Shown here one piece after another: positions 18,439 through 30,584 of a DNA stretch of 40,171 bases. The translations under genes and the position numbers were made by a program. Source of the stretch: a virus; IMG/VR virus record IMGVR_UViG_3300042376_000521, positions 1-40,171 of that record; one strand, given 5' to 3'. Positions within the stretch are counted from its first letter, which is position 1. Each line of letters opens with the position of its first letter. The notes beneath the pieces are model-generated. The model worked only from the letters and a program-made list of their open reading frames with translations, had not been told where the DNA came from and ran no database searches.

Positions 18439-18780
18439 ATGGCAGCCACAACATTCACTTGGACCCCTAGCTATCCGGCCACACAGGTCAGCCAGCCGAA
18501 TGTGCGCACCGTCAAGTTTGGCGACGGTTACGAGCAGCGCATCCGCTATGGCCTGCGCACTGATTTCAAGGTTTGGAATCTCAGCTTTGATAACCGCGAC
18601 GACGCCGAGCGCGCGTTGATCCTGACGTTTTTGACGGATCGCGGCGGTGTCGAGCAGTTCAACTGGACAACGCCACACGGCGGCACCAGCGCGTTCGTCT
18701 GCAGTGAGTGGACCAGCGAGCACGCTGGCTGCAATAACAACAACATCAGGGCAACCTTTCGCCAAGTGATTGACCTATGA
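18439..18780 (+). CDS. Minor tail protein M
   Basis: 113 residues, matching the lambda gpM family (about 109 residues): FTWTPSYPATQVSQPNVRTV, KFGDGYEQRIRYGLRTDFK with the family's FGDGYEQR motif, an NRDDAERALILTFLTDRGG helix and a last strand [11 protein letters not shown]. It forms part of the tail tip assembled before the tube. The stop overlaps the L start (ATGA). Confidence 0.92.
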   Translation: MAATTFTWTPSYPATQVSQPNVRTVKFGDGYEQRIRYGLRTDFKVWNLSFDNRDDAERALILTFLTDRGGVEQFNWTTPHGGTSAFVCSEWTSEHAGCNNNNIRATFRQVIDL

Positions 18781-20405
18781 CGATGTTTGAGGAGCTGATC
18801 AGCAGCTCACCCTTCGCCGTCATCGAGCTGTTTGAGCTGGTGTTGCGGCAAGAGATCCACGGCACCAACGAGACCTACAGGTTTCACAACGGCAGCAACG
18901 GCAATATCACCGCCACAGGCGACATCATCTGGCGCGGCAACCCCTATGTGGCGTTGCCTGTGCAGACCGAGGGCTTTGAGTACAACGGCAACGGTCAGCT
19001 GCCGCGGCCGCGGCTGAAGGTGGCCAACCTGCTCGGCACGGTGTCCGCCATCTTGGTGACGGTCAACAACACCACGCCAGGCAATGATTTGACGGGTGCG
19101 CTGTTCCGGCGTATCCGCACGCTCAGCCGCTTCATCGATCCGGTCAACTTCCCGAACAGCATCAACCCATACGGGCTGCCGACACTGGATGAGATGCCAC
19201 AGGAGATCTACTACGTGGATCGCAAGGTGGCCGAGACCCGCGACTACGTGGAGTTCGAGCTGGCGGCTGCGTTTGATCTCGCAGGTGTTCGCGCGCCAAA
19301 GCGGCAGGCGATCGCCAACATCTGCCAATGGCAGTACCGCAGCCCTGAGTGCGGCTACACGGGCACCAACTATTTCGACGAAAACGATCGCCCGGTAACG
19401 CTGGTGCCGGCGGCTAACTTGGCATCTGGCCTGTCGCAGGTGACAGCCGGTCAGATCGTATTTCAGGGGTACAGCAGCGGCACGCGACTGGTTTCCAGCA
19501 ATCTCTGGTACGAATCTTTCATCGATGGCGCTGGCATCTTGGTGATCAAGGCCAAGAACGGCAACACTGTGTGGTCGATCGGGTCTGCGCAGTATCCGGC
19601 CGATCGTTACACGGTCACAGGAGATGGCAACTTCGAGCTGTCGCTCGGCTTCACCGGCCTGCGCTTTCAGAGCAACACCGCGCGGCTAGGTGATCCAAAC
19701 TCGATCACTTTCAACCTTGCCTATTTCCCAAACAACACGCCGGATCCAAGCGCTGCATGGGAGCCGTTTCCAGAGAAGCGTGATCAGTCCGGCAACCTGA
19801 TCCGCAATGGCTATGTCGGCCACCGGCTTGCGTTCTTCCACGAAATTATGGGCTCGGCTCAGTCGCAGCAAGGCGTTACAAAAACTGAGACCTATCAGTT
19901 CACCTTCAACGGTAAGGATCTGACGTTGCGGTTCACTGCAGTCTCGACGCAGCTACCTGCTGGCCACTGGAGCGGGCAAAGCTGGGGGTGGCAAGACTCA
20001 GCAACCAGCACCTATCCAACGGCGACGATCACATCGAGCACTGGTCTGTTCAAGCAAAACGAAGTATTCAGCGCCACGGTGCAGCTCGGCAGCACCAACC
20101 CCTTCCGCAATCCGCCCTATGGCGTGATGGGATCAGTGACTGGCAGCTTCAGGATCACCAGCACGTCGGGCTACAGCGCCAACTATCTGCGCCTCACAAA
20201 CCAAGGCCAACTGACGCTCTACAACGCCGCCAACACGGTGCTGTGGCAGAGCAGCTACAGCAGCACAGCGGAGCCCAGCACCTCGATCGCGGCAAACAAG
20301 TCGCTGGATGTTTGCGGTAAACGGCTGAGCAGCTGCAAAGCACGCTTTGGTCAGAATGCACAGCTGCCTTTCGGCAGCTTCCCCGGCGTTGGTGGGTTCG
20401 TCTGA
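18777..20405 (+). CDS. Minor tail protein L with a ~300-residue insertion inside its Fe-S domain
   Basis: 542 residues versus 232 in lambda gpL. Residues 1-207 match gpL ([66 protein letters not shown]). The gpL C-terminal domain binds an iron-sulfur cluster with four cysteines; here C183-x8-C192 and C513-x6-C520 keep the expected spacing within pairs, but about 320 residues separate the pairs where lambda has about 22. The protein then ends as usual ([21 protein letters not shown]). The insertion (about 208-507) is beta-rich and has two stretches resembling bulb-type lectin repeats ([12 protein letters not shown] with [31 protein letters not shown]). It may add glycan binding at the tail tip. 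Both ends overlap neighbours. Confidence 0.9.
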
Positions 20406-21115
20406 TGAAGGACTGGCAGCGCGACGCATTGCAGCACGCCATCGCAGAAGCGCCGCGAGAGGCTTGCGGTCTGGTGGTGGTGGTCAAGGGGCGCGAACGT
20501 TATTGGCCGTGCCGCAACCTGGCAGACACACCGGCTGATTTCTTCGTGCTGTCGCCTGATGACTACGCCGCAGCTGAAGATGCAGGCGAGATCACCGCAG
20601 TGTTTCACAGCCACCCGAGCACACCAGCTGAGCCGAGCGAGGCTGATCGACTGGCCTGTGAGCACAGCGGCCTGCAGTGGTTCATCGTCAACCCCGGCAC
20701 GATGGTTTGGGGTGAGTGCAGGCCAGAGGGCTACAAGGCGCCGATCATTGGCCGGCAGTGGGTGTGGGGCATCAGCGACTGCTGGACGCTTGCGCGTGAC
20801 TGGTACGCCGAGACATGGGGCCTGCAGCTGCGCGATTGGCAGCGTCCGTTGAGCATGGAGCAGTTCAACGCTTCGCCCATGTTCGATGCCTGCTGGCAGG
20901 AAACTGGCTTCGTTGAGGTGAATCAATCCGACCTGCAGCCTGGTGACCTGCTGCTGATGTCACTCGATGGCTGCCGCGGCCTGAATCATTGCGCTGTCTA
21001 CGTTGGCGAGCAGATGATCCTTCACCACATCAGGGGCCGGCTCAGCTCCCGCGACCTGTTTGGTGGCTACTATCAGAAGAACACGGGGCGAGCGCTCCGC
21101 CACTCCAGCAGGTGA
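20405..21115 (+). CDS. Tail tip protein K: JAMM/MPN plus NlpC/P60 peptidase
   Basis: 236 residues. The N-terminal JAB/MPN domain shows the JAMM metal motif: Glu19, then HSHP with His68 and His70, Ser78 and Asp81 in the exact HxHx7SxxD spacing. The second domain is NlpC/P60-like: candidate catalytic Cys126 in GISDCW, His195 in LNHCAVY and a polar third residue near His207-208. Lambda gpK has the same two domains and is thought to process tail components or open peptidoglycan during DNA entry. It starts in overlap with the L stop. Five nt separate it from I. Confidence 0.93.
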
Positions 21116-21120
21116 CGCGA

Positions 21121-21714
21121 ATGCTGCGAGTCATCAAGGTCTACGGCAGCTTGGCGAAGTTCTTGGGGCAGCGCAGCTTTGAGGCGGCCGTGCGCACACC
21201 GGCTGAAGCTGTGCGCTTCTTGGTTGCCAACTTCCCTGGCGTTGAGTCGCACATGAGCGAGCGCCACTACAAAGTGAGCGTGGGGCGGCACGAGCTAACG
21301 GCAGGCGATCAGCCTGAGCAGCTGCACTATCCCGCTGGTGACCTTGAACCGATCAGGATCGTGCCAGTGCTGGCCGGCGCTGGTGCTATTGGCCGCATCA
21401 TTGCAGGTGTTGCGCTGGTGGCTGCTGCAATCTTCATCCCCGGCCTTGGCCTTGGCCTGGCCGGTGCAACGGTCACGCAGATCGGCGTGCTGGGTGGCGC
21501 GTTGATCTTGGGCGGCATCGCCCAGCTGATCACGCCGGTGCCGCAGATCGGTGGGGGCAAGGACAGCGACAAGGATCCTCGCAAGTCCTACAGCTTCTCC
21601 GGCATCCAGAACGTAAGCCGCCAAGGCATTCCGGTGCCGATTGTCTACGGCGAAACGCTGATCGGCAGCATCGTGGTGTCGGCCGGTATCAACACTGAGA
21701 AGGTGCCGATCTGA
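21121..21714 (+). CDS. Tail assembly protein I
   Basis: 197 residues from ATG 21121; an upstream in-frame GTG (20989) lies inside K and adds no family sequence, so the later start is chosen. The N-terminal ubiquitin-like beta grasp (LRVIKVYGSLAKFLGQRSFE, AEAVRFLVANFPGVE) is typical of gpI. A glycine-rich hydrophobic hairpin follows (about 85-135, IIAGVALVAAAIFIPGLGLG), then a C-terminal part with the family signature SGIQNVSRQGIPVPIVYGE and GSIVVSAGI. It helps build the tail tip with J. TGATG overlap with J. Confidence 0.92.
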   Translation: MLRVIKVYGSLAKFLGQRSFEAAVRTPAEAVRFLVANFPGVESHMSERHYKVSVGRHELTAGDQPEQLHYPAGDLEPIRIVPVLAGAGAIGRIIAGVALVAAAIFIPGLGLGLAGATVTQIGVLGGALILGGIAQLITPVPQIGGGKDSDKDPRKSYSFSGIQNVSRQGIPVPIVYGETLIGSIVVSAGINTEKVPI

Positions 21715-24700
21715 TGTCTGACGAACTGATCCGCGGCGCAGGCGGCGCAGGCGGCGGCAAAGGTGGCTCCGGCGGTGGCTCAGGCCCCAGCGTCGAGAAG
21801 GACAACCTGGAATCAGAGCAGACTGCACGGATTATCGACGTGCTCAGCGAGGGCGAGATCGAGGGCTTTCCTTCGGCTCGTGCTTACGCTCGCGGCAGCA
21901 CGGAATACAATCGCGCGCTGCTGAAAGACATCTACTTCAACAACACGCCGCTGGTCAGGGCGGATGCAGACGCTACGGCGCCACTGACGAAGGAAGACTA
22001 CAACTTCAAGAGCTTCATCGTTGAGCCGCGTTACGGCACACAAAACCAGTCTTACGTTCCGATCAGTGATTCAATTCAGCAAGAAGAAGAAGTCAACGTC
22101 AAGGTAACCAAAAACCAACCAGTCACGCGCACGATCACAGATCCGAATGTCAACGGCGTGCGTGTCACCATCTCAGTGCCGCAGCTGCAGGTCTACCAAG
22201 AAGACGGCGACATCCGCGGCCGCTCGGTGAGGTTCCGGATCTTGGTGTCTTACAACGGCGGCCCGTACATCAATCCGTTTGGCCAGCTGTTGAAGATCGA
22301 AGGCCGCACGGTTGACCTGTATCAAGAGCGCTACCGCGTGGATCTAACGCAGCCGCCACCGGTGTCGATCCGCGTCGAGCGCATCACAGACGACGCACCA
22401 CAGGCCGGCAAGGAAACGATTGTCGATGAGATCTACTGGGCAAGCTACACCGAACTGATCTACGCCAAGCTGGCGTATCCAAATACTGCGCATGTCGGCA
22501 TTCAGATTGATGCCAAGCAGTTCAGCAGCATCCCGCAGCGCTCCTATCGCGTGCGTGGCATCAAGGTGCGCATTCCCAGCAATGCCACCGTCAACTCCGC
22601 AGATGGCAGCATCACCTATAGCGGTGTCTGGAACGGTAATTTCAAGGCCGCTGAATGGTGTTCAGATCCGGCGTGGATCCTGTGGGATCTGCTGACTTCT
22701 ACCCGTTACGGCTTTGGGGATCACATCCTCACGAGCCAAGAGAGACAGAGCTTCAGCGGTGACGCCAGCAGGCTGGACAAGTGGACGTTCTACAGCGCCA
22801 GCCAATACTGCAACGCCCGCGTCGATTCCGGCCTGCGCGACACCAGCGGCAACCCAATCCTTGAGCCGCGCTTCTCCTGCAATGTCAACATCCAGACGCA
22901 AGAAGAGGCGTACAAGCTGATCAATGACATGTGCTCGGTGTTCCGAGCGATGCCATTCTGGAGTTCAGGCGCGCTCACGATCGCGCAGGATCGCCCGGCT
23001 GATCCGTCCTACATCTTCAACCAGTCCAGCGTCACAGAAGAAGGCTTCACCTACAGCGGCAGCAGCATCAAGACACGCCACACCGTTGCGGTGGTGTCCT
23101 ACCTCGATCTCGAGCTGCGTGACATCGCCTACGAGGTGGTTGAGGACGCGACAGGCATCACCAAGTTCGGCGTGGTCAAGACTGAGGTGTCAGCCTTTGC
23201 CTGCACCAGCCGCGGCCAAGCGCGGCGCATCGGTGAATGGCTGCTCTACTCCGAGCAGAACGAGACCGAGGTGGTCAGCTTTACCGCTGATCTGCCATCT
23301 GGACAGGTGGTGCGCCCTGGTCAGATCATCCGCGTGGCTGATCCGGTGCGCGCTGGCCGCTACAGGGCCGGCCGTGTGGTCAACGCCACCAACACAACCG
23401 TCGAGCTAGATCGCACGGTCGGTGAGCTGTTCTATGACGGCCTGCCCGCCACGTTCGACTTCAACGTGATCCTGCCTGATGGCACATCGCAATCGATCAG
23501 CGGCATCAATGGCACCAGCCTCAACAACGCCACGGTCACCCTGCCGACGCCGCTGCGTCTGACGCCAGCGCCTAACTCTGTCTGGGCGATCGGCACCACC
23601 GGGCTGCGCCCCTCGCTGTGGCGTGTGCTGACCGTGCAGGAGCAGGACGGCGACACCTACGGGATTACGGGCATCTCATACAACCCGAGCAAATATGACT
23701 ACATCGAGCGCGATCAGCCGCTGCAGATCCGCGATGTTTCGCAGCTGGATGTGCCACCACCTACGCCGCAGAACTTGGTCGCCACCGAGGCGCTATATGA
23801 GGCGAACGGGTCTGTGCTGAGCAAGGTCATCGTCAGCTGGCGTGCGGTGCCGTCAGCCACGCGCTATCAGCTGCGTTACCGGCTGTCGCCGAACAACTGG
23901 ACGACGATCCAGACCACAGCGCCCGACTACGAGATCCTCAACAGCCAAGTCGGCACCTATGACTTCGAGCTGGAGGCATTGAGCGCCGGCCTGCTGCGAT
24001 CGGCAACAGCAACAGCCAGCTTCAACGCCGTTGGCAAGACGGCACCTCCGGTCACGATCCCGGATCTGTTCATCGCGCCAATCGATGATCGGAACGCTGA
24101 GCTGTATTGGCCGCAGTCCACCGACCTTGATGTGCGCATCGGCGGCGAGGTTCAGATTCGCCACAGCCCGCTGCTGGTCAACGCAGATTGGAGCCGCTCG
24201 ACGCAGATCGTGCCTGCAGTGGCCGGCAGCAGCACACGCAAGATCGTGCCGCTGCTGGAAGGCACCTACCTCATCCGCGCCAAGGATTCGCTCGGCAACG
24301 AATCCTCTGGCACCGCCAGTGTGATCGTTGACCTGCCTGCACCGCAGAACGCGTTGCTAGTGCAGACCTACCGGGAAGACAACACCACGCCGCCTTTCCA
24401 AGGCGTTGCGACGGACATGTTCTACGACACCACAGAGGTGGGCCTTGCGCTGGCTGGCGCCACCCTTGTGGATGATCTGGCGACCAACGACGACTGGGAT
24501 GGCATTGGCCTGATCGACTACGCCGGCGGCTCGAAATCCTCCGGCAGCTACGAATACACCAACACGCTGGACCTTGGCGCACGATTCGACCTGAACCTGC
24601 GCCGCATCCTCAAGACCCGTGCCTTCCAGCCTGGCGACCTGATCGACTACCGCTCCGGCAACGTGGACGACTGGCAGGACATTGATGCCGCCAACATCGG

Positions 24701-25136
24701 CAACGTCAACGCTGAGACCTACGTGCGCGCAACGGACAACAACCCGAGCGCATCACCGACCTGGAGCGCATGGCAGCCGTTTGTTAATGGCATCACCCGC
24801 GGCCGCGGTTTCCAGTTCAAGGTGCTGGCCAGCACCGCAGATCCATCGCAGAACATCGTGCTCGAGGAGCTTGGCGTTGAGACCGAGCTGCAGCGCCGCA
24901 CCGAAACGCAACGCAACCTCACCACCAGTACCGCTGCCTATGCGGTCACCTTCCCCAATGCCTTCTATGCCACGCCCAGTATCGGCATTACAGCGCAGGA
25001 CATGAACCAAGGCGACTACTTCACGATCGGCAACGCGACACGGACTGGGTTCGAGGTTACCTTCAGGAATAGCGCGGGTAACATCGTATCTAGGACGTTC
25101 GACTACCAAGCGGTCGGCCACGGCCGGGAGATCTAA
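21714..25136 (+). CDS. Central tail tip / host specificity protein J
   Basis: 1140 residues, similar in size to lambda gpJ (1132). The N-terminus, after a Gly/Ser-rich lead, has DNLESEQTARIIDVLSEGEI and EGFPSARAY, typical of J. Domains continue as in the family: the hub region with YFNNTPLVR, PYINPFGQLLKIEG, the AEWCSDPAWILWDLLTSTRY segment, a phage tail domain III-like stretch EDATGITKFGVVKTEVSAF, fibronectin-III-like modules (about 680-880) and a C-terminal receptor-proximal part ending FDYQAVGHGREI. It forms the tail tip hub and contributes to receptor recognition. It directly abuts the fibre gene at 25137. Confidence 0.96.
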   Translation: MSDELIRGAGGAGGGKGGSGGGSGPSVEKDNLESEQTARIIDVLSEGEIEGFPSARAYARGSTEYNRALLKDIYFNNTPLVRADADATAPLTKEDYNFKSFIVEPRYGTQNQSYVPISDSIQQEEEVNVKVTKNQPVTRTITDPNVNGVRVTISVPQLQVYQEDGDIRGRSVRFRILVSYNGGPYINPFGQLLKIEGRTVDLYQERYRVDLTQPPPVSIRVERITDDAPQAGKETIVDEIYWASYTELIYAKLAYPNTAHVGIQIDAKQFSSIPQRSYRVRGIKVRIPSNATVNSADGSITYSGVWNGNFKAAEWCSDPAWILWDLLTSTRYGFGDHILTSQERQSFSGDASRLDKWTFYSASQYCNARVDSGLRDTSGNPILEPRFSCNVNIQTQEEAYKLINDMCSVFRAMPFWSSGALTIAQDRPADPSYIFNQSSVTEEGFTYSGSSIKTRHTVAVVSYLDLELRDIAYEVVEDATGITKFGVVKTEVSAFACTSRGQARRIGEWLLYSEQNETEVVSFTADLPSGQVVRPGQIIRVADPVRAGRYRAGRVVNATNTTVELDRTVGELFYDGLPATFDFNVILPDGTSQSISGINGTSLNNATVTLPTPLRLTPAPNSVWAIGTTGLRPSLWRVLTVQEQDGDTYGITGISYNPSKYDYIERDQPLQIRDVSQLDVPPPTPQNLVATEALYEANGSVLSKVIVSWRAVPSATRYQLRYRLSPNNWTTIQTTAPDYEILNSQVGTYDFELEALSAGLLRSATATASFNAVGKTAPPVTIPDLFIAPIDDRNAELYWPQSTDLDVRIGGEVQIRHSPLLVNADWSRSTQIVPAVAGSSTRKIVPLLEGTYLIRAKDSLGNESSGTASVIVDLPAPQNALLVQTYREDNTTPPFQGVATDMFYDTTEVGLALAGATLVDDLATNDDWDGIGLIDYAGGSKSSGSYEYTNTLDLGARFDLNLRRILKTRAFQPGDLIDYRSGNVDDWQDIDAANIGNVNAETYVRATDNNPSASPTWSAWQPFVNGITRGRGFQFKVLASTADPSQNIVLEELGVETELQRRTETQRNLTTSTAAYAVTFPNAFYATPSIGITAQDMNQGDYFTIGNATRTGFEVTFRNSAGNIVSRTFDYQAVGHGREI

Positions 25137-25922
25137 ATGGCTCAGGCAACCGACTACACACTGGCTAACCAGAGCGGCGCAAACTTCCGCGCTGAGCTGA
25201 ACACCATCCTCGCTGCAGCGGTCAGCTTCAACAGTGGCACGACCGAGCCGGCGACGATGTACGCCTACATGCCGTGGGTAGACACCGGCGTGTCGCCTGC
25301 ACTGCTGAAGATCCGCAATGGCGCCAACACGGCGTGGATCACGGTCGGTGATGTCACAGCAGCCAACCTCGGCCTGCTGACCAGCGCATCGGCAGCGAGC
25401 ACCTATCTGGCGCTGGCTGGTGGCACGCTGACTGGCGATCTGACGCTGGGCGCTGGCCGCAGCGTGGTGTTCGAGGGCGCGACGGATGATGCCTTTGAGA
25501 CGACGCTATCGGTCACGGATCCAACCGCTGACCGGACGATCACGCTGCCTAACGAGTCGCTGACCGTGGCGGGCCGTGACGTGGCGCAGACGTTCACAGG
25601 CGGCCAACGCGCTGGCCTGCAGACGCTGACCGATGGCGCCAGTATTGCGGTGGATTTTAGCCTGGCCAACAACTACTCAGTCACGCTCGGCGGCAACCGC
25701 ACCTTGGCCAACCCAACCAACCAAGTGGCAGGGCAGTCTGGCTCGATCTTCGTGGCGCAAGATGCGACCGGCAGCCGGACGCTGTCGTATTCGTCCGATT
25801 GGGAGTTTGCAGGTGGCACTGCTCCTACGCTGAGCACCGCTGCCAACGCCGTGGATCGCATCGACTACATCGTGCGCGCTAGCGGCTCCATCCACGCCAT
25901 CCTCACCAAGGCTTACAGCTGA
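25137..25922 (+). CDS. Tail fibre protein
   Basis: 261 residues. The N-terminal segment (ATDYTLANQSGANFRAELNT, then GTTEPATMYAYMPWVDTG and LLKIRNGANTAWITVGD) is a common phage fibre anchor module. It is followed by ALAGGTLTGDLTLGAGRSVV, a repeat unit shared by many side-tail fibres, and a beta-rich head ending HAILTKAYS. Directly downstream of J with no gap and overlapping the next fibre gene (TGATG), it probably mounts on J or the tail tip. Confidence 0.82.
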   Translation: MAQATDYTLANQSGANFRAELNTILAAAVSFNSGTTEPATMYAYMPWVDTGVSPALLKIRNGANTAWITVGDVTAANLGLLTSASAASTYLALAGGTLTGDLTLGAGRSVVFEGATDDAFETTLSVTDPTADRTITLPNESLTVAGRDVAQTFTGGQRAGLQTLTDGASIAVDFSLANNYSVTLGGNRTLANPTNQVAGQSGSIFVAQDATGSRTLSYSSDWEFAGGTAPTLSTAANAVDRIDYIVRASGSIHAILTKAYS

Positions 25923-28357
25923 TGCCTGTCTTTCATGATTCCGCTCTGATCGGCGCAGCTGGCGCTGCAGTAGGTGGGGGCGGGTATGCCATCGAGAGAA
26001 GCCTGCGGCTTAACGCACCCGACTCGGCGTACCTCAGCCGCACCCCCGCATCAGCCGGCAACCGTCGCACCTGGACCTGGGCGGGGTGGGTGAAGCGGAG
26101 TGGATTGGGGACGGAGCAATCACTTCTCTCATGTGGGACAAGCGCAAATAACAGCACTTTTGGACAGATTATCTTTGGGTCAGATAATACATTTCGGGTC
26201 AATGCCTATTCCACTACGTGGAGAGGAACGTCTGCTGTTTTTAGAGATACATCGGCATGGTATCACTTTGTTGTTGCATTTGACACGACACAGGCTACTG
26301 CTGCAAATCGCGTAAAAATCTACATTAATGGTATTGAAGTTACTGCGTTTGGACTCTATAGCGACCCAACGCAAAATACTGATTATGCTATCAACCAAGC
26401 AGTTCAACATACTATTGGTCGACATGACTTAGGAGGCGGCGGAAACTATTTTGACGGCTGCCTAGCCGACTGCTTCCTGATCGACGGCCAAGCCCTAGAC
26501 CCCACCAGCTTCGGTGAGTTCTCTGCCACCACCGGCGTGTGGATGCCTAAGGCGTTCTCGGGCGGCAGCTACGGCACCAATGGGTGGCAACTCAAGTTTG
26601 AGGACAATTCGTCTAACACCGCAACGACACTAGGGAAGGACACTTCTGGCAACGGCAATAACTGGACGCCGAACAACCTTTCAGTCACCGCTGGTGCAGG
26701 CAACGACAGCCTCGTAGACGTTCCCACTAACGGCAGCGAGGTTGATACAGGCGTGGGCGGGGAGGTGAGGGGAAATTATGCGGTGCTTAATCCGCTTAAT
26801 TACACAGGCACTGTAACGCTTAGCAATGGCAATTTAGATGCAACTGGTAGCAATGCCAACGCGTCATCAACCATCGCGCCTAGTTCTGGCAAGTGGTATG
26901 CAGAATTTTCTTTTTCTGCCATTGGCGCCGCTGTTGGATTTGTTGGAATCTCAAACAAGCTTAGCGCAGACGCGTTTTCGGGTGCAACTCAAACCTGGCA
27001 ACTTAACTACACCAATACGGGCAAACTAGAGAATGCTGGCAGTCAATCAAATGTCAGTACGTTTACAACTGGAGACATCATTGGTGTTGCTTTTGACTGC
27101 TCAAATGGTCAAGCAACATTCTACAAGAATGGATCAAGCGTAGGAACAATCACTGGCTCTGCTTTTGTGGGCGTTCCCGTCTTGGTTGGCGCAGGCGCTG
27201 GTGGTGCAGCGGGCACAAACACTTTCACTGCCAACTATGGCGCTCGCAGTTTCGCCTACACCGCCCCCAGCGGCTTCAAGGCGCTATGCACGGCAAACCT
27301 GCCGGCGCCAGTAGTCACAAAGCCTAGTGATGCGTTCGATGTAACTCTTTATACCGGAAACAGCACAGACAATAGAGCAATCACTGGACTCGGTTTTTCT
27401 CCAGATCTTGTCTGGTTTGGTCCACGCTCTCAGTCCGGTCAAGACAAAGTTATTTGCGACAGCGTAAGGGGAGTTCAAAAGGCACTATTCAGCAATCAAA
27501 CCTACGTTGAGGCCGACCCTGCGCTTTATGGTTCTGTTGGCAGTTTTGACGCCAACGGTTTTACAATTAAGAAGGGCACTGATGCCACGTTTGGCTTCCA
27601 TCAAGTCAACCTAAATAGCAGCACCTACGCCGCCTGGTGCTGGGACGCCGGCAGCTCCACCGTCACGAACAACACCGGCACCATCACAGGCGCTCAGGTG
27701 AGAGCCAACGCATCGGCCGGCACATCCGTGGTTGCTTATACCGGTAACGGCACCAGCGGCGCCACGGTCGGTCATGGTCTTGGTGCTGCACCGGGCTTGA
27801 TCATCGTCAAAAAGCGCAGCGCAGCAGATGATTGGGTGGTCTATCACTCGGCACTTGGTGCCACCAAATACCTTTGGCTCCATGCCACAAACGCCGAGCA
27901 AACTGGCACCAGCCGCTGGAATGACACAGCACCCACCAGTACTGTGTTCAGCCTTGGCAACAACAGTAGCGTCAACGGTAACGCCAGTACATTTATCGCC
28001 TACTGCTTCGCCCCAGTAGCCGGGTACTCTAGTTTCGGCAGTTACAGTGCAAATGGGTCGAGCGATGGGCCCATGATATTCACAAACTTCCGCCCGAGGT
28101 TTGTCATGGTTAAGCAGACAAATGCCAGCGGTCAAGGCTGGTTCATGCTTGATAGCAGTCGCTCTCCGTATAACGTATCCACAACCTATTTGCTTGCCCA
28201 GAGCGGCAACGCGGAGGCGTCGGGGTATGTAGATATGGACTTCTTGTCCAATGGATTCAAGATTCGCAGCGCTGACGGGGCTGTAAATGCTTCTGGCGGA
28301 ACGTATGTCTACTGTGCATTTGCCGAATCACCCTTCCAATACGCCCGCGCACGCTGA
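25922..28357 (+). CDS. Large LamG/SPRY-containing receptor-binding fibre protein
   Basis: 811 residues. Residues about 40-190 read as a LamG/concanavalin-like domain (WTWAGWVKRSGLG, WYHFVVAFDTTQATAANRVK, YINGIEV, FDGCLADCFLIDGQALDP). A conserved phage linker (DTSGNGNNWTPNNLSVTAG) leads to a SPRY-like domain at about 310-430 (GKWYAEFSFSAIG, VGFVGISNK, IGVAFDCSNGQATFYKNGSS). The rest (about 450-811) holds repeated beta modules (DVTLYTGNSTDNRAITGLGF, VVAYTGNGTSGATVGHGLG) seen in cyanophage fibres. Such arrays bind surface glycans. Several patches (about 26100-26450, 26800-27200, 27330-27600) are clearly AT-richer than neighbouring genes, suggesting recent exchange of receptor-binding segments. 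Confidence 0.82.
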   Translation: MPVFHDSALIGAAGAAVGGGGYAIERSLRLNAPDSAYLSRTPASAGNRRTWTWAGWVKRSGLGTEQSLLSCGTSANNSTFGQIIFGSDNTFRVNAYSTTWRGTSAVFRDTSAWYHFVVAFDTTQATAANRVKIYINGIEVTAFGLYSDPTQNTDYAINQAVQHTIGRHDLGGGGNYFDGCLADCFLIDGQALDPTSFGEFSATTGVWMPKAFSGGSYGTNGWQLKFEDNSSNTATTLGKDTSGNGNNWTPNNLSVTAGAGNDSLVDVPTNGSEVDTGVGGEVRGNYAVLNPLNYTGTVTLSNGNLDATGSNANASSTIAPSSGKWYAEFSFSAIGAAVGFVGISNKLSADAFSGATQTWQLNYTNTGKLENAGSQSNVSTFTTGDIIGVAFDCSNGQATFYKNGSSVGTITGSAFVGVPVLVGAGAGGAAGTNTFTANYGARSFAYTAPSGFKALCTANLPAPVVTKPSDAFDVTLYTGNSTDNRAITGLGFSPDLVWFGPRSQSGQDKVICDSVRGVQKALFSNQTYVEADPALYGSVGSFDANGFTIKKGTDATFGFHQVNLNSSTYAAWCWDAGSSTVTNNTGTITGAQVRANASAGTSVVAYTGNGTSGATVGHGLGAAPGLIIVKKRSAADDWVVYHSALGATKYLWLHATNAEQTGTSRWNDTAPTSTVFSLGNNSSVNGNASTFIAYCFAPVAGYSSFGSYSANGSSDGPMIFTNFRPRFVMVKQTNASGQGWFMLDSSRSPYNVSTTYLLAQSGNAEASGYVDMDFLSNGFKIRSADGAVNASGGTYVYCAFAESPFQYARAR

Positions 28358-29501: not shown

Positions 29502-30584
29502 ATGGCCAACGCAGCCCCAATCTCGCTAGAGCAGCTCTTCAGGTTCTACAAGGGGTTGCCACACCAGGCAGCAGCGATCGGCCAGCTGGAGCAGGATCTG
29601 GCCGTCAACGGATACGCCGCAGCAATGCGCCGCGATCGGGCATGGTTTCAGACTTGGAGCCAAGACGGCAAGCAGGCGGACTTGGCAGCCGCGCTGAAAC
29701 TGATCAAAGACTTCGAGGGTTGTCACCTCGACGCCTACCCCGATCCGCTCAGCGGCGGCGCACCGTGGACGATCGGTTACGGAACGACGCGCTACAGCGA
29801 CGGCAGACCCGTCAGCAAAGGCGACAGGATCAACGCGGTCGAGGCTGACCTGCTGTTGCGGCAGGAGGTGGATCGAATCGCCGCCAAACTGCGCAGCGCT
29901 GTGCCCTTCTGGATTGAGATGGCGGATCACCAGAAGTGCGCGCTGATCAGCTTCGCCTACAACCTCGGTTCAGCGTTCTACGGCGCCAAGGGATTCGAGA
30001 CCATCAGCAAGCGGCTGCGCGAAAAGGACTGGGCCGGTGTGCCCGATGTCCTGCTGCTCTACCGCAACCCCGGCACCAACGTCGAGGCCGGCCTCAAGCG
30101 GCGCCGCATTGCAGAGGGCGACCTATGGGGCCGCGAGCGGCAGACCACCGGACCGATCTCAGCGATGTTCACGCCTGAGTCGCCCTTCAGCCAGAAGATC
30201 ACGCCGCACATCACCGCGGGTGAGTTTGCGATCGGCCAAGAAGCAAGGCGCTTCGATCATCAGCACCAGTGCGACACGGCGCTGAGGCTGGCGCAGTTTC
30301 TTGAGAAGGTGCGCGCGCAGTTCGGTGGCCGCCCGGTGGTGATCACCTCCGGCTACCGGCCGCCAGCCGTGAACCGCTCGGTGGGTGGCGCCAGCAGCTC
30401 CGAGCACCTCTACGACGGCATCGGCGTGGGTGCGGTGGACTTTTTCGTTGATGGCGCGGACATCAACGCCGTGCAGGCATGGTGCGACAAGAACTGGCCG
30501 CACTCGCTCGGGTACGGCGCACCTAAAGGCTTCGTGCATTGCGGCATCCGAAAAGGCGCGCCTAGAGTCCGCTGGGATTACTGA
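29502..30584 (+). CDS. Two-domain endolysin: GH24 lysozyme plus M15 peptidase
   Basis: 360 residues. After a helical lead, residues about 60-210 form a T4-type (GH24) muramidase with the triad-like Glu72 (KDFEGCHLDAY), Asp81 and Thr90 (PWTIGYGT). Residues about 232-360 form an M15-type zinc peptidase: His302 (SSEHLYDG), Asp313 (GAVDFF) and His346 (GFVHCGIR), with SGYRPPAVNRSVGGASS before them. One enzyme would cut both the glycan and the peptide of the cell wall. No signal peptide is seen, so release depends on a holin, consistent with the two small membrane proteins just upstream. Confidence 0.94.
   Translation: MANAAPISLEQLFRFYKGLPHQAAAIGQLEQDLAVNGYAAAMRRDRAWFQTWSQDGKQADLAAALKLIKDFEGCHLDAYPDPLSGGAPWTIGYGTTRYSDGRPVSKGDRINAVEADLLLRQEVDRIAAKLRSAVPFWIEMADHQKCALISFAYNLGSAFYGAKGFETISKRLREKDWAGVPDVLLLYRNPGTNVEAGLKRRRIAEGDLWGRERQTTGPISAMFTPESPFSQKITPHITAGEFAIGQEARRFDHQHQCDTALRLAQFLEKVRAQFGGRPVVITSGYRPPAVNRSVGGASSSEHLYDGIGVGAVDFFVDGADINAVQAWCDKNWPHSLGYGAPKGFVHCGIRKGAPRVRWDY

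Follow-up and report, generated by a model that had tools for sequence, protein, structure and literature searches.

The window, by which we mean the whole 40,171-nucleotide stretch of viral DNA that was analyzed (IMG/VR virus record IMGVR_UViG_3300042376_000521), carries tail-tip genes in the order M-L-K-I-J, matching lambda. The features that bear on the gpL gene are as follows.

18439..18780, plus strand: gpM-like distal tail protein, upstream of gpL (Phage_min_tail, E = 4e-27)
18777..20405, plus strand: gpL-like tail-tip protein with a split Fe-S domain, 542 amino acids (open reading frame, Phage_tail_L, PHROG, and PDB homologues)
18777..19271, plus strand: HDI-like N-terminal domain of gpL, residues 1 to 165 (Pfam and PDB alignments; domain name as in PMC10721106)
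19272..19394, plus strand: first half of the Fe-S domain, residues 166 to 206, with Cys183 (19323-19325) and Cys192 (19350-19352), both invariant in alignment A1
19413..19676, plus strand: lectin repeats I and II, residues 213 to 300 (A2 profile against pyocin L1, repeat alignment, AlphaFold2 model with Foldseek)
19704..20132, plus strand: beta domain (the middle domain) that separates lectin repeat II from repeat III, residues ~310 to 452 (45 aligned lineages, confident model)
20133..20297, plus strand: lectin repeat III and linker, residues 453 to 507 (B_lectin E = 4e-4, putidacin L1, repeat alignment)
20298..20402, plus strand: second half of the Fe-S domain, residues 508 to 542, with Cys513 (20313-20315) and Cys520 (20334-20336), invariant in A1 (C terminus of the F2-pyocin gpL homologue)
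20405..21115, plus strand: gpK-like protein with JAB and NlpC/P60 domains, downstream of gpL (domain matches)
20989..21714, plus strand: open reading frame containing a gpI-like protein, matching from residue 45 on (PHROG 32, E = 5e-47)
21714..25136, plus strand: gpJ-like central fiber, 1,140 amino acids (PHROG 31, E = 4e-205; FNIII-A_GpJ, E = 7e-32)

Beyond these genes, positions 25922 to 28357 encode an 811-residue protein with LamG-like (ConA-fold), SPRY, and DUF7483 domains, likely an additional surface-binding fiber, and positions 29502 to 30584 encode an endolysin in which phage lysozyme and M15 peptidase domains share one chain.

By sequence, the gene at 18777 to 20405 encodes a homologue of lambda gpL. 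Residues 30 to 210 matched the Pfam family Phage_tail_L (PF05100) with an E value of 3e-52 and 177 bits, against a cutoff of 25, the protein matched a PHROG annotated as minor tail protein (E = 5e-76), and the PDB homologues were lambda gpL and a protein of the F2-pyocin. Residues 508 to 539 aligned with the C terminus of the F2-pyocin homologue. A preliminary description of this DNA had already noted that the gpL-like N-terminal part and the extreme C terminus are intact. The ATG start overlaps the stop codon of the gpM gene (ATGA). A 2013 paper by Tam et al. reportedly deals with the Fe-S cluster of gpL. The window protein shares with lambda gpL (PDB 8iyk) and its F2-pyocin homologue (25vf) the HDI domain, the C-x8-C and C-x6-C pairs, and the gene order M-L-K-I-J. 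Its only cysteines are residues 183, 192, 513, and 520, in the arrangement C-x8-C, 320 residues, C-x6-C, exactly as first described, whereas about 22 residues separate the pairs in lambda. The length of this gap is a variable trait rather than a requirement for membership in the family, given the hub proteins of RcGTA, R4C, and JBD30 discussed below.

The preliminary description had proposed that the loop joining the two cysteine pairs houses an entire inserted domain, and the search of gpL homologues that it suggested bore this out. Across gpL from all fetched loci the gap between the pairs was two-peaked, at 21 to 25 or 290 to 730 residues with no intermediate, a pattern that is valid for this gpL subfamily and not for all gpL since the sampling was steered by similarity to the window protein. 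E values from the locus scan are likewise relative to the candidates. After removal of near-copies there were 54 inserted and 62 uninserted sequences. Uninserted relatives read C-x8-C, 21 to 25 residues, C-x6-C, and the inserted gap was mostly 290 to 334 residues, with three loci at 577 (L144), 718 (L215), and 730 (L216). The insertion point was identical in all 54 inserted lineages, which come from many metagenomes, and both pairs were present in every lineage, including a small group (L143 and L125) with a C-x14-C first pair. The four cysteines were invariant in the 29 sequences of alignment A1, and four more viral contigs carried the window gpL gene at 100% identity. A tree of the gpL N-terminal part, built without the insert, placed 51 of the 54 inserted sequences in one well-supported clade (100/96); the other three (L144, L215, and L246) fell near it, with no firm placement. 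Gain or loss on two or three occasions explains this pattern, with which a single origin is also compatible, and aquatic phages probably acquired the lectin insert one or two times. Median pairwise identity was 30 to 40% for the insert versus 59 to 66% for the HDI domain and Fe-S halves. Such faster divergence would be expected of a receptor-binding module, but relaxed constraint would give the same result.

The insert contains what sequence comparison identifies as a genuine monocot-mannose-lectin (B-lectin) domain. The window protein itself scored only E = 4e-4 and 21 bits against Pfam B_lectin, under the gathering cutoff of 32, and E = 0.0014 against putidacin L1 among PDB sequences. Its relatives gave stronger matches. 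For the insert of locus L026, the match to pyocin L1 had E = 1e-15 and that to garlic agglutinin, one of the plant agglutinins matched, had 2e-14; a profile of 16 inserts (A2) matched pyocin L1 at E = 5e-20, and the proteins of L144 and L215 reached 84 and 103 bits for B_lectin (cutoff 32) on the same chain as Phage_tail_L. Of 52 distinct inserts, 38 had the exact sugar-binding motif QxDxNxVxY in one repeat or more, whereas shuffled inserts yielded zero; six lineages (L026, L028, L031, L033, L038, and L102) kept it in all three repeats. Thus, the bulb-type lectin resemblance noticed at first goes beyond chance, with support from the sequence itself, from the family profile, and from Foldseek. 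The early account had counted two lectin repeats, and repeat alignment gave three, at residues ~235 to 270, 271 to 300, and 453 to 500. The third is separated from the other two by the middle domain, so the lectin is itself split.

The motif was absent altogether in 14 of the 52 lineages, including L006, L014, L024, L042, and L143. The window copy and its sister L006 each have none of the three canonical motifs, in keeping with the earlier remark that the mannose-binding residues are degenerate. Sugar binding by the window copy is doubtful because all three motifs have been lost, and the ligand of this lineage may have been either changed or lost. In pyocin L1 the motifs bind D-rhamnose of lipopolysaccharide (LPS), and a double motif mutant had no detectable binding (PMC3916391). 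At the other extreme, the gpL proteins at L144:2726-5128, L215:5001-7823, and L216:3-2747 are 800 to 940 residues long, and their loop between the cysteine pairs has six to nine exact motifs in a row, with six to eight in L144 and L215; these appear to be arrays of lectin units at the tail tip.

About half of the insert is not lectin, and in this respect the initial reading of a lectin-like insertion held for repeats I to III and not for residues ~310 to 452. These ~145 residues form a separate middle domain that is conserved over 45 aligned lineages, about as well as lectin repeats I and II. Modeled alone, it gave a pLDDT of 89 and a pTM of 0.84. Searches of Pfam, PHROGs, and PDB sequences yielded no relative that was accepted, and a fold search returned no PDB match at E ≤ 0.001 and just two long proteins in the viral library, D6PHN5 (E = 5e-6) and D6PFJ6 (E = 4e-4). 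A scan with the window middle domain alone found nine loci, of which eight were gpL loci already in the set and the ninth was L214. Kinship with a flagellin-hook protein was rejected, as the weak sequence match was the sum of a 40-residue stretch that occurs four times and scores poorly at every copy.

In a full-length AlphaFold2 model of the window protein, pLDDT was mostly 75 to 95 in the insert and 26 to 43 over most of the Fe-S halves. Foldseek with this model returned lambda and T1 gpL first and then B-lectins, among them neoculin (root mean square deviation of 1.8 over 84 columns, target TM score of 0.61), pyocin L1, and LlpA. The lectin module is a putative beta-prism II with three repeats by alignment, the third split off by the middle domain.

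Other particles already place a binding domain in the Fe-S loop, as RcGTA and the roseophage R4C carry one there. The RcGTA hub protein g13 has an oligosaccharide-binding domain (residues 168 to 249) between ion-binding segments 143 to 167 and 250 to 263 (PMC7296036), and the R4C hub has one at residues 162 to 243 on the same plan (PMC10276861). In both, the insert lies between the Fe-S half-domains as in the window gpL, a position that is equivalent by the cysteine pairs. By contrast, their insert is ~82 residues long, has been likened to domains of the T4 hub and the LKA1 spike rather than to a B-lectin (for RcGTA the comparison is by description), and has neither a nested domain nor tandem expansion. 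The upper baseplate protein of JBD30 has metal-binding Cys147/156 and Cys238/245 with a similarly short gap (PMC11445458). A sequence check counted 86 residues between the pairs in R4C and 81 in JBD30, with a C-x6-C second pair in both. When the gpL profile was compared with the single R4C and JBD30 hub sequences, a weak test, the inserts stayed unaligned and only the second cysteine pair of R4C was matched (E = 0.06). Pyocin L1 and putidacin L1 (LlpA), to which the insert is closest among PDB sequences, share the B-lectin (MMBL) fold and the QxDxNxVxY motif, but these lectin-like bacteriocins are free-standing tandem lectins outside any tail and have no middle domain between repeats. The C-terminal region of gpL also varies among other siphovirus hubs, as in Alishewanella LSH1 gp25 and Salmonella Jersey gp30 (PMC13243795), where the Fe-S domain has been replaced or lost, whereas in the window family it is kept and split. 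No report of a lectin in gpL was found in the literature searched. The preliminary description had spoken of a new way to add receptor binding to a tail. What is new is the B-lectin, together with its nested domain and the tandem arrays, and the use of this site for a sugar-binding domain has its precedent in RcGTA and R4C.

All carriers of the lectin insert were metagenomic viral contigs, except for one bin contig. When bacterial and archaeal genomes were scanned, the insert by itself had no relative there, and the whole protein picked out the lectin insert in that single environmental bin contig (L149), the other matches being uninserted. At L149:1391-2614, in a bin labeled "bacterium," the lectin-type gpL loses its frame after about residue 325, probably through sequencing error or decay. 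Three different inserts were compared by tblastn with 50,697 phage genomes; two had no match of any kind, and no cultured phage had the insert. The third, the L144 array, matched lectin-like stretches in four Pseudomonas phages only, in hypothetical genes where annotated. At L286:2513-3067, Pseudomonas phage Riah encodes a free-standing small lectin-like protein that resembles the L144 repeats; genes for ParB-like and repressor proteins lie nearby, and the lectin gene is possibly bacteriocin-like. As to the host, the window capsid protein is 60% identical to that of the freshwater Synechococcus phage S-LBS1 and 55% to those of S-CBS1 and S-CBS3. A picocyanobacterial host is thereby suggested, but no more than as a lead, because uninserted gpL relatives were found in Limnohabitans and Polynucleobacter records. 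Identity in gpJ was mostly 60 to 66% for lectin carriers on long contigs and 47 to 52% for uninserted ones.

Taken together, we think it likely that this gpL presents a fast-diversifying lectin module at the tail tip that binds host surface glycans for adsorption. A lectin module has been inserted into the Fe-S domain loop of a lambda-type tail-tip hub protein and would project sideways from the tip in three copies per virion. In lambda the Fe-S domain lies on the outer surface of the tail tip (PMC10721106), which makes display of the insert toward the host plausible, and the module is presumably exposed at the surface. Because the two ends of the insert would come back together, a single [4Fe-4S] cluster should still be held by the four cysteines; we infer both cluster formation and sugar binding for the inserted gpL. 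The ligand would be a surface polysaccharide of the aquatic host, either LPS O-antigen or extracellular polysaccharide, and the lectin would give reversible adsorption and avidity, leaving the final receptor step to gpJ. Counting against the lectin reading, the phage has other candidate receptor binders in the gpJ C terminus and the 811-residue LamG/SPRY/DUF7483 protein. We give a slim chance to a further role in which sugar binding at the tip would pull or shift the Fe-S domain, which rotates outward in receptor-bound lambda, and so prime or trigger tail opening. If true, sugar-coupled opening would give the long-unexplained tail-tip cluster a function.

Several other explanations were weighed. 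The insert could be mainly a structural collar or stabilizer of the tail tip, with a lectin fold co-opted as scaffold and sugar binding incidental or lost. The domain is retained in the window, L006, L014, L024, L042, L143, and other lineages although their motifs are gone, conservation of the middle domain is similar to that of lectin repeats I and II, and LlpA bacteriocins include MMBL domains without intact motifs (PMC6240691). Nevertheless, most lineages, although highly diverged, retain between one and three exact motifs, others have multiplied them to six to nine, and we regard a mainly structural role as unlikely. Somewhat less probable still is a module that binds free or environmental glycans, such as algal mucus, particles, or cyanobacterial slime, and places the phage near hosts without being a receptor binder. 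The almost exclusively metagenomic viral origin of the carriers is consistent with it, and the many sugar sites of L144, L215, and L216 would favor low-affinity avidity to polymers, but a tip position adjoining the outer membrane fits host contact better than a capsid position would. The abrupt boundaries within a conserved protein might suggest a self-removing or selfish element, a reading that is hardly credible for an insert that matched no intein or Hint family, falls in lectin families, and was inherited in a clade-like manner. An assembly chimera or annotation artifact is refuted for practical purposes by the architecture common to the four identical contigs and 53 diverged lineages from independent samples, with nothing found in its favor.

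For this uncultured family of aquatic phages, then, host adsorption remains our preferred reading, and the lectin module most likely helps to grip host surface sugars. The Fe-S domain loop would be a docking site for sugar-binding modules that are large and change rapidly, some of them arrays built of several lectin units. Viewed alongside RcGTA and R4C, this hints at a general principle and gives the puzzling tip cluster a role that can be tested, that of anchoring side-mounted binding modules. That no cultured phage in the searched collection has the lectin version points to an unrecognized adsorption strategy in aquatic phages.

Other departures from the usual gpL plan were seen among the fetched loci. 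At L205:1986-2978 (Marine virus AG-345-A17), gpL is without the Fe-S region and has an insert of ~130 residues in a different loop, in the HDI domain; its stretch YYCSTHGNSMG is cupredoxin-like by eye, with no PDB sequence match. Two uninserted gpL proteins of alignment A1 (L070 and L075) have an insert of ~25 residues (DYLLTEDNFALLYEDDTFIY...) in that same HDI loop. At L204:1477-2671 (Mannheimia phage 535AP2), two adjoining genes are annotated as minor tail protein L, and gpL similarity extends across both.
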